DNA from: Candidatus Phaeomarinobacter ectocarpi
Lineage (GTDB): Bacteria > Pseudomonadota > Alphaproteobacteria > CGMCC-115125
Reading direction: 5' to 3'
Length of the DNA: 64,000 nucleotides
Assembly: GCF_000689395.1 (NCBI RefSeq)
Contig: NZ_HG966617.1
Span: 2,354,221-2,418,220 of the forward strand
The stretch's first letter is position 1; the number at the start of each line of letters is the position of its first letter. The notes under the pieces are model-generated. The model was given only the letters and a program-made list of their open reading frames with translations. It was not told where the DNA came from and ran no database searches. The position numbers and the translations under genes are program-made. Below are positions 20,705 through 25,990 of the stretch, piece by piece.

Positions 20705-21526
20705 TCAGGAAGGATCGCGCAACACCCAGCCATGGTCGAGCGGTCCGGCACCTGCACCAATCTTTGGGGCATGCGCCATTGCCATATGAACATAGTCGCG
20801 CGCATCTTCCACCGCATCGACAACATCCCTGCCCTGCGCCAGAAAAGTTGCAATGGCGCTGGCAAGCGTGCAGCCGGTACCATGGGTCGAGGTGGTATTG
20901 ATCCGCGGACTTGTGAAGGTCCGGATTTCCATCGGCGTCGCCAACACATCCACCACTACGTCGCCGCCTAGATCACCGCCCGTTACCAGCACGCAGTCAG
21001 GACCCGAGGCAAGAATGGCCCGCGCGGCATCGCGCATGTCGCCCGCGGTTTTCACCGGCTGGTCAGCAAGCACCGCTGCTTCATGAATGTTCGGCGTTGC
21101 AATAAACGAAAGAGGCAAAAGCCGACCAATGAGCGCCGTCTCGGCATCCTGCTGCAACAGCCGATCGCCGGACGTTGCGACCATCACCGGGTCTACAACG
21201 ACCGGCGGCACATCGTCATAGGCCTCAATCGCGTCCGCCACAGCGGTGATGATATCAGCTGAATGCAGCATCCCTGTCTTGAAGGCATCAACGCCGATGT
21301 CAGAGATCACAACGTCCATCTGCTGGCGCACAAGCTCCGGCGTGAGCCCTTCCACGCCATGAACGCCAAGTGTGTTTTGAACAGTAATGGCCGTGATCGC
21401 TGTCGCGGCATAGCCACCCAGCGCCGTCACAGTCTTGATATCGGCTTGAATGCCTGCGCCGCCGCCTGAATCAGAGCCGGCAACAATCAGGATACGCGCC
21501 AGATCTGACGGGGCCGCCTGCGTCAC
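20705..21526 (-). CDS. thiD: HMP/HMP-P kinase ThiD
   Basis: A 273-residue ribokinase-fold enzyme that phosphorylates hydroxymethylpyrimidine and its monophosphate for thiamine synthesis. Family motifs are [18 protein letters not shown]-type at the N-terminus, TVQNT, the DPVMVATSG loop, and [12 protein letters not shown] with the catalytic region near the C-terminus. It starts with GTG overlapping the glmM stop (GTGA), so it is coupled to cell-wall precursor synthesis, an unexpected partner. The substrate connects it with thiC and thiE elsewhere in the window. Confidence 0.95.
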
Positions 21527-22869
21527 GCGGTTCGGCTCTCGATGACACCGCAGATATCGTTCACAACCCGCTCAACCAGCGCATTGTCGTCGCCTTCCGC
21601 CATAACCCGGATAAGCGGCTCGGTGCCGGATTTGCGGATAACCAGACGCCCGCGATTGCCCAGCGCCTGTGTGCCCGTCTCAATGGCATCCTTCACCTGA
21701 TCATCCTCAAGCGGCGCGCCATCGCGGAACCGCACATTGCGCAGCAGCTGCGGCAAGGGATCAAACAGATGGCAGATTTCACTCAGAGGTTTTTGCGTCT
21801 CGGCCAGCACCGCCATCACCTGCAACGCCGCAATCAGCCCATCACCCGTGGTCGCGAAGTCAGACAGAACCACATGGCCGGACTGCTCACCACCAAGATT
21901 GAAGCCATTGGCACGCATATGCTCAACCACATAGCGGTCACCAACCTGCGTACGGGCCAGAGTCATGCCCTTGCCTTCCAGATAGCGCTCAAGGCCAAGA
22001 TTGCTCATGACAGTCGCCACAATGCCGCCGCCCTGCAGCATCTGCTTGTCAGCCCAGGACTGGGCGATGGCAGCCATCACCTGGTCGCCATCCACCGTCT
22101 CACCGCGTTCATCCACGATGATCACCCGGTCTGCATCACCATCCAGCGCAATGCCGATGTCCGCTCGCAGCTCACGAACCTTGCCGGCCATCATGTCTAC
22201 CGACGTAGAGCCACAGCCCTCATTGATGTTTGTGCCATTGGGTTCAACGCCGACTGAAAAGACTTCGGCCCCCAGTTCCCACAAGGCAGCAGGCGCAACT
22301 TTGTAAGCAGCACCATTGGCGCAATCCACAACAATGCGAATGCCTTCCAGGCTGAGATGACGCGGAAAAGTGCGCTTGGCAAATTCGATGTAGCGCGCCT
22401 GCGCATCATCAATGCGCTTGGCACGTCCTATGCCGGACGGTGCCGCAAGCCCATCGGTCAGGCCATTGTCCATATGGTGCTCAATCGCGTGCTCCACGTC
22501 GTCAGACAGCTTGTAGCCATCCGGACCAAACAGCTTGATGCCGTTGTCGCCAAAGCTGTTGTGCGACGCTGAAATCATGACGCCGAGATCCGCCCGCAGT
22601 GAGCGGGTCAGCATCGCAACTGCCGGTGTCGGCAACGGACCGAACTGGAACACGTCCATACCTACTGACGTAAAGCCAGCCACAAGGGCATTTTCAATCA
22701 TGTAGCCGGACAGTCGCGTGTCCTTGCCGATCACGACCCGGTGGCGGTGTTCACCGCGCGTAAAAACGCGACCGGCCGCCATGCCCACCTTGAGCGCCGT
22801 CGATGCAGTCATCGGCTCCAGGTTCGCGCGACCGCGAATACCGTCCGTTCCAAAATATTTGCGTGACAT
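21523..22869 (-). CDS. glmM: Phosphoglucosamine mutase
   Basis: A 448-residue enzyme converting glucosamine 6-phosphate to glucosamine 1-phosphate for UDP-GlcNAc. FGTDGIRG at the start, the active-site MISASHNS with phosphoserine Ser102, the metal loop DGDADR, GGEQSGH and the C-terminal [12 protein letters not shown] are all present. The length is normal and it appears intact. Position downstream of folP is the conserved ftsH-folP-glmM order, and it is also the gene whose fragment accompanies mobile sul2. The gap from folP is 102 bp. Confidence 0.98.
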
Positions 22870-22971: not shown

Positions 22972-23784
22972 TTACCGGGTTTTTGGCTGCAACGCGGCGG
23001 AAACCGCAAGGGCATCCTTGAGTGCGCCGGGCGCGTGCGTCCGGATATAGCCAGCACCCGCCGCTGCCGCAAACATTTCCGCAGCCAAAGTAGCAGGACC
23101 GATATCCGCCACATCTCTGCCTGTCATTGCCCGCAAGAAACTCTTCCGGGAGACAGAAATCAGAACCGGCAGGTCATAGCGAGCCTCAAGGCGGCCAACG
23201 TGGCGCAGCACCTCAAGCGACACTTCCGGGTCCGTCCCGAGGAAAAATCCCATACCCGGGTCCAGCACCAGCCGCTCCCGTGCGATCCCGGAAGCCGCGA
23301 GTCCGTCCAGCCGGTCGTCAAAGAAGTTGAAAATGCGATCCCATATCTGATCCGCCGGCACATCCTGCCGCCGCGCTCTGCCGCGCCCCTGCACCCCATG
23401 CATGATAACAAGTTTGGCTGACGCGCTGGCCAGGGCTGGGTAAATCTCCGAATGCGGAAAGCCCTGTATGTCGTTGAGATACGCAACGCCTTGCCCCAGC
23501 GCCCAAAGCTGCACATCAGGCTCAAAGCTATCAATCGACACAGGAATGTCAGCGGCCACCAACTGAGGCACAATTCGAGCCAGACGTGAAATCTCTTCTG
23601 CAGCTCCCACGTCAGCCGAATCGGGATGGCTCGAAGCCGCTCCCAGATCAATGACATCGGCCCCCTGCGCCATCAGGGCACGCGCATGGGCAAGTGCCGC
23701 GTCCGCCTCAAGGTACTTTCCACCATCAGAAAAAGAGTCCGCGGTGACATTCAGAATGCCAAACAGGGTCGGCGAAGCAGTCAT
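22972..23784 (-). CDS. folP: Dihydropteroate synthase, Sul type
   Basis: A 270-residue TIM-barrel enzyme that condenses pABA with dihydropterin pyrophosphate in folate synthesis. The first loop is GILNVTADSFSDGG (Ala where most FolP have Pro), and the pterin/phosphate motif VSRKSFL and IRTHAPG are intact. The region DPGMGFFLG (175-183), YLNDIQGFP (102-110) and SIDSFEP match the mobile resistance enzymes Sul1/Sul2 from memory better than E. coli FolP (DPGFGFGK). This is therefore probably a chromosomal Sul-type DHPS, naturally insensitive to sulfonamides. I chose ATG 23784; the longer frame begins with TTG inside the upstream terminator. glmM follows. Confidence 0.9.
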   Translation of the reverse strand: MTASPTLFGILNVTADSFSDGGKYLEADAALAHARALMAQGADVIDLGAASSHPDSADVGAAEEISRLARIVPQLVAADIPVSIDSFEPDVQLWALGQGVAYLNDIQGFPHSEIYPALASASAKLVIMHGVQGRGRARRQDVPADQIWDRIFNFFDDRLDGLAASGIARERLVLDPGMGFFLGTDPEVSLEVLRHVGRLEARYDLPVLISVSRKSFLRAMTGRDVADIGPATLAAEMFAAAAGAGYIRTHAPGALKDALAVSAALQPKTR

Positions 23785-23870: not shown

Positions 23871-25799
<1,929 letters not shown>

Positions 25800-25990
25800 A
25801 GGATTTTGGTCCTTGTCAGCGTGAAAGGGCCCAAAAAGCCCCAAACACGGCAGTTTTCTTGCTGAGTGCCAGCATATTCAAAGATAGGCGGCCAATAAAG
25901 GATTACCAGTCCTTAGACCAATTCCAAAACTGCTTAACGACCGTTAAATCTCAAGGCGTTAGCGCCTCAAAGCCCCACCAAAGATGGGGT

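Follow-up and report, generated by a model that had tools for sequence, protein, structure and literature searches.

Is a chromosomal folP that resembles a transmissible sulfonamide resistance gene the host's own gene, a mobile gene that settled in the chromosome, or the stock from which the mobile genes were taken? Dihydropteroate synthase (DHPS), the product of folP, is the folate enzyme targeted by sulfa drugs, and the window, i.e., the whole stretch of 64,000 nucleotides of Candidatus Phaeomarinobacter ectocarpi that was analysed, carries a folP of the Sul type beside glmM. This gene is very probably the host's own housekeeping DHPS of the Sul type, placed at its native locus and, as we infer, insensitive to sulfonamides. 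Chromosomal FolP proteins with the Sul motif are already known, as they were described in Rhodobiaceae and Leptospiraceae by Sanchez-Osuna et al. in 2019 (PMC6335563); the useful part here is their wider distribution and a closer donor lineage for sul2, neither of which is described in the literature searched, a search of titles and abstract openings with most subscription journals outside it.

The folP gene and its chromosomal locus

The gene occupies positions 22972..23784 of the minus strand, where reading frame, translation and NCBIfam models agree on a Sul-type dihydropteroate synthase of 270 aa with an ATG start; the plus strand is interrupted by stops in this interval and is non-coding. 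An earlier note, made from the sequence alone, had given these coordinates exactly, leaving the strand unnamed. According to the NCBIfam models, the gene order is tilS - ftsH - folP - glmM - thiD, all four of the genes located here being on the minus strand: ftsH lies directly upstream of folP (23871..25844; TIGR01241, 890 bits), glmM directly downstream (21523..22869; 448 aa), and thiD, encoding a hydroxymethylpyrimidine kinase, follows glmM in the conserved order (20705..21526; TIGR00097, 301 bits). The earlier note was also right in calling glmM intact, since its product scores 620 bits against a TIGR01455 cut-off of 447.6.

The genome consists of one contig of 3,415,905 bases and is reported to be 100% complete. 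Throughout it, PF00809 matches in two places, the window folP and one other frame, which we take to be methionine synthase by its features. With the second place read in this way, the PF00809 search of the 3.42 Mb gave no DHPS gene besides the window folP, while folK is present elsewhere in the same genome.

All three other genomes of the genus (3/3) carry an orthologue of this folP, 75-93% identical and in the same gene order, and neither an empty site nor an ordinary folP was seen in these three congeners. The dN/dS values of folP against them are 0.045/0.58, 0.124/1.75 and 0.184/1.67; dN is well under dS, and the gene is under purifying selection. For glmM, dN is 4 to 9 times lower than for folP in the same three comparisons. 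The GC content of folP is 60.1%, that of the window is 59.6%, and a scan of 12 flanking proteins against family libraries revealed no transposase among them. By all appearances, folP has been passed down as part of the chromosome and did not arrive as a mobile sul gene.

Sul-type identity and predicted drug insensitivity

The window FolP passes the general DHPS model TIGR01496 with 240.7 bits (cut-off 162.6). Among the resistance models, the NCBIfam ranking places Sul2 first, followed by Sul3 and Sul1, all of them under their exception cut-offs; in the case of the Sul2 model NF000295, the score is 340.6 bits and the exception cut-off 575. A sequence search of the PDB gave the same order, with 320 bits for Sul2 (chain 7s2j), 268-271 for Sul3, 248 for Sul1, and 142.5 for the best ordinary DHPS. 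Among the matches listed, the protein is 60% identical to plasmid Sul2 over its full length and 49.4% identical to Sul3, and its identity to Sul1 is 48.7%.

The four segments that the earlier note had quoted are all present in the translation: NVTADSF (residues 12-18), SIDSFEP (83-89), YLNDIQGFP (102-110), and DPGMGFFLG (175-183, encoded at 23236..23262 of the minus strand). The alignments place in the last of them, at DPGxGF, the two-residue insertion of the Sul motif. When the pocket residues given in PMC10328974 are mapped onto the protein, F180 corresponds to Sul2 F179, and thereby to Sul1 F178 and Sul3 F177, and L182 corresponds to Sul2 L181. Residues N12, S17, F18, S52, N104, I106, D175, M178, F180, F181, L182, K214 and S215 are all identical in Sul2, and those handling the pterin and pyrophosphate (N12, N104, D175, K214, R248, and H250) are kept. 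In a sample of the class comprising 25 rows, the insertion is present in seven, all of them 52-100% identical to the window FolP; the other 18 rows are without it and 27-37% identical.

A FolP tree of 81 rows, computed after the removal of 8 motif columns and with a bootstrap that had not settled, splits 55 Sul-type from 26 ordinary rows with a support of 100/100 and places the window in the Sul clade together with Sul1-3. The earlier note's assignment to the Sul type is therefore borne out, a grouping with ordinary FolP outside this clade not having been seen. One change is enough to explain the Sul type on this tree, and the insertion is present in 55/55 rows of the Sul clade and 0/26 ordinary rows. 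Within the clade, the window and two congeners join L028 (98/91), whereas Sul1 has no resolved place; a grouping of Sul1 with Sul2 is not rejected (p 0.129). The rows stem from BLAST hits, from which we omitted L001, the duplicates or overlaps L002, L003, L004, L006, L007, L008, L009, L109 and L110, the 45 sul2-bearing loci L060-L104, and L139, L141 and L142. Of the resulting 97 rows, the window included, 16 were then dropped (L053, L120, L123, L118, L114, L116, L151, L153, L147, L027, L037, L025, L021, L134, L145, and L149). The 75% congener (L006/L110) is consequently absent from every FolP tree, and Parvibaculum lavamentivorans itself is not placed by name in them.

The AlphaFold2 model of the protein has a mean pLDDT of 90.3, with lower confidence at the insertion, whose two blocks reach 82 and 75. 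Foldseek ranks Sul2 (7s2k) first, with a TM of 0.95, and VIA-align gives Z values of 40.7 for Sul3 (8scd), 39.7 for Sul2 (7s2k), and 33.7 for the highest-scoring DHPS outside the Sul group. Lower-scoring Sul chains range between 33.8 and 37.0 (34.4 for Sul1, 33.8 for one Sul3). Since the lowest of these are level with ordinary DHPS in overall fold, the type cannot be told from the fold by itself.

As any DHPS, this enzyme would join pABA to dihydropterin pyrophosphate. Where helix 6 begins, the two-residue insertion (DPGMGFFLG vs DPGIGF-GK) would set F180 and L182 beside the pABA pocket, where F180 would tolerate pABA yet clash with the larger sulfonamide drugs, a mechanism published for Sul1-3. 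In those three enzymes, it is the Phe that keeps sulfonamides out, and when Gly was put in its place, resistance was impaired for 12/12 drugs tested; the roles of both Phe and Leu in the Sul pocket are treated in section 12 of the same paper (PMC10328974). With regard to chromosomal Sul-type enzymes, the published resistance tests considered here (PMC6335563) cover two of them, both in E. coli: folP from P. lavamentivorans gave a sulfamethoxazole MIC of >512 mg/L vs 8, and folP of the Sul type from L. interrogans one of 512 mg/L vs 8. Judging from its residues and these two tested relatives, the purified enzyme is probably insensitive to sulfonamides and so is the host; as the enzyme is built like the transmissible sulfa-resistance enzymes, the host would probably be insensitive by nature.

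Different readings of the gene have been weighed against that of a native Sul-type enzyme. Recent acquisition of a mobile sul gene might be thought of because sul copies do occur in chromosomes, but it is highly improbable here and effectively ruled out by the sole DHPS gene, the diverged congener orthologues kept in order, and the matching base composition, to which the lack of a transposase among the flanking proteins scanned and the position of the gene, with ftsH on one side and an intact glmM on the other, may be added. An ordinary FolP that is sensitive to sulfonamides and resembles Sul by chance would also pass the general DHPS model; this reading has hardly any probability left, as it is refuted by the motif-free tree and goes against the contrast between 60% identity to Sul2, among the matches listed, and 27-37% to the 18 ordinary proteins of the class. 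Less remote, even though still unlikely, is that the sequence is Sul-like but its insertion serves some other pABA or folate chemistry, drug tolerance being weak or absent. The spread of the Sul type over many environmental lineages would fit this, and so would the loss of the first discriminating Phe, replaced by Leu or Gln in 3/55 rows of the Sul clade (L039, L043, and L119), which means that this Phe is not indispensable. The window FolP, however, retains the Phe, the Leu and every mapped pocket residue, and the two chromosomal Sul-type enzymes tested give high MICs in E. coli (PMC6335563). With such natural members, from which the key Phe is missing, the published mechanism can be put to the test on unengineered enzymes.

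Compared with known systems, the native Sul-type enzyme of the window shares with ordinary FolP (TIGR01496, e.g., that of E. coli) the TIM barrel, the catalytic residues and the folate step, whereas the ordinary proteins are without the two-residue insertion and form a separate clade. With mobile Sul3 and Sul1 (8scd, 7s2i) it shares the insertion and the fold, these two being more distant and found in mobile contexts. The resemblance to mobile Sul2 (NF000295; 7s2j/7s2k) extends to overall identity, pocket residues, fold and an adjoining glmM; contrary to Sul2, the window gene is chromosomal, has an intact glmM and housekeeping neighbours, stays under the Sul2 cut-off, and is not the nearest chromosomal relative of that gene.

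Distribution and inheritance of the type

Like the Rhodobiaceae folP in PMC6335563, the window gene is chromosomal, has the two-residue insertion and stands in the order ftsH-folP-glmM. Unlike the folP of Rhodobiaceae and Leptospiraceae, it belongs to a lineage with its own family code, with only the class common to 27 out-of-genus genomes in a sample of 31. A search of 385 alphaproteobacterial genomes at 1e-10 gave matches in 293, of which 25 were of the Sul type, distributed over the family codes f1, f5, f10 and f19 (4 each), f126 (3), f123 and f142 (2 each), and f40 and f55 (1 each). The scores of both types are separated by a gap from 352 down to 210 bits, and 25/25 Sul-type genomes have the insertion. 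The motif was also read in 78 further loci of this class, 77 being ordinary and one unusual (L174). Because the reading below 210 bits covered these 78 loci and 20 of the 92 matchless genomes were listed, we make no claim that every member of the nine families has the type. Among 398 genomes of Pseudomonadota, 16 matched at E <= 1e-60, and just two Sul-type matches fell outside the class, agreeing in identity and motif with sul2 and sul1. As for mobile copies, 45 of 80 genome-contig loci (L060-L104) show exact Sul2 identity and motif, including L097, on a record titled chromosome.

The inheritance of the type was followed in a tree of the neighbouring proteins FtsH and GlmM, computed with a quick method on 96 rows (39 Sul and 57 ordinary, labelled by the motif rule) after omission of 9/105 rows, each of which either belonged to 14 names listed as near-duplicates or had <400 filled columns. 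The type needs 4 changes on this tree, 3 of them forced by starred branches, vs 30.4 for shuffled labels, a clustering inflated by near-copies and by Sul rows that partly came from a search for Sul-type genes. The starred group of 38 rows that holds the window contains 36 Sul and 2 ordinary rows.

These sequence comparisons suggest that the Sul type arose once and was, for the most part, inherited vertically within a single supergroup of Alphaproteobacteria. The Sul-type folP is not confined to Rhodobiaceae and Leptospiraceae, which goes beyond the 2019 paper. We consider it reasonably likely, in sum, that the Sul-type DHPS is a long-standing native enzyme of a large alphaproteobacterial supergroup (nine family codes or more, that of the window included), mostly inherited in place at ftsH-folP-glmM instead of being a trait acquired by Rhodobiaceae alone, and that sul2 was taken from a Parvibaculum-like twig in the vicinity of L033/L044, which is far nearer to it than the donor compared in print. 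If true, insensitivity to sulfa drugs would have existed throughout a bacterial supergroup long before these drugs did. The chromosomal reservoir of Sul-type resistance is wider than the two families named in 2019, and to it the window contributes a lineage in which a natural Sul-type DHPS is the sole such enzyme found.

Some loci depart from this pattern. In genome G341 of family f40, the Sul-type folP (L198/L129) is inverted between ftsH and glmM; two other genomes of the family (L132 and L136) have an ordinary folP at the same site in the usual direction, and L198 is sister to two ordinary rows, being a probable case of in-place replacement or transfer. In another alphaproteobacterial family, f131, twelve FolPs (L220-L224, L226-L231, and L233, not L225) carry two inserted residues at this position without the first Phe, as in GWGRFVSL or GWSAFLSH, and form their own 100/100 clade in a tree of a chosen subset of Sul rows plus f131 rows, with L237 left out. 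These proteins occur in 12/31 genomes of the family, 17 of which had a match, and 3 of the 12 genomes also carry an ordinary folP copy; a comparison of this clade as sister to Sul or as convergent gave p 0.385. The Gly-Phe-Phe motif itself is present in hundreds of database DHPS sequences, according to PMC10328974. Outside the Pseudomonadota, a contig of Amycolatopsis circi (L053:5001-5792; record of 70% GC) has a Sul-like FolP frame, genuine or perhaps a contaminant, that is 55% identical, and no match to ftsH or glmM was obtained beside it in this actinobacterial record.

The probable chromosomal source of sul2 and other mobile relatives

The earlier note had pointed to a Rhodobiaceae origin of sul1 and sul2 and the link of sul2 with glmM, both of which are in print (PMC6335563), and had seen in the window a chromosomal relative of that ancestor. 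The kinship holds, given the Sul clade (100/100); what changes is its degree, as two other loci are much nearer to sul2. These are L033:5001-7228 (JAUSMV010000012.1, Parvibaculum sp. MAG) and L044:4033-5434 (JAKQBV010000400.1), the nearest chromosomal folP-glmM pairs to mobile sul2 found here. The first one has thiD downstream and, by eye, a gene resembling the PhzF-family gene of the window. Sul2 joins both loci in the FolP tree (100/97); the group around them includes a further Parvibaculum MAG and leaves the window FolP outside. Over about 1.13 kb of the sul2 unit in L062, spanning folP and a glmM fragment, DNA identity is 73.5% to L033 and 74.3% to L044. For P. lavamentivorans folP and sul2, 63.33% has been published (PMC6335563), a value comparable to ours only approximately because the methods differ.

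That the window represents the direct donor lineage of mobile sul2 (and sul1), or their nearest chromosomal relative, has only a slim chance of being right, even though the shared order, with 915 nt between the starts of folP and glmM in the window vs 902 nt in two sul2 loci, would agree with it. Sul2 is 80.4% identical to the protein of L033 and 77.3% to that of L044, compared with 60% to the window FolP among the matches listed. The sul2-linked GlmM fragment (81 aa in L062) is 97.5% identical to L033/L044, 85.2% to L034/L111, and 82.7% to the window, a comparison made by identities only, as a tree of the GlmM N-terminus had too few columns and long-branch warnings. In addition, the window genus sits with L028 in the FolP tree, and its grouping with Sul2 alone is rejected by the AU test (p 0.032). 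One clade of the window genus, Sul2, L033 and L044 is not rejected at 0.05 (p 0.080), which leaves identities, branch supports and the glmM fragment to carry the donor argument. Direct donorship is largely refuted by L033 and L044, which are closer in both folP and glmM, and the window lineage is most likely a cousin of the sul2 donor. For the very widespread resistance gene sul2, the field of likely chromosomal sources is thereby narrowed to a Parvibaculum-like twig, which is open to sampling. An N-terminal glmM fragment is present in 37/45 of the sul2-bearing loci L060-L104, some of which end near sul2, and none was found in 6 further mobile loci (L137-L142).

In the case of Sul3, the FolP tree joins it with a Prevotellaceae MAG and a Treponema MAG (100/98). 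The locus of the former, L107:5001-5780 (JAISVR010000011.1), encodes the Sul-type FolP closest to Sul3 found here (68.7%); its neighbours are presumably recG- and metG-like genes, so that its surroundings in this Bacteroidota MAG look chromosomal. The Treponema locus (L057:3004-3789) encodes a Sul3-like FolP (59.8%) on a contig with apparent transposase fragments and is possibly a mobile relative of sul3; on the same contig, 291 bp at L057:4539-4827 are 81% identical to the DNA upstream of sul3 in a plasmid.
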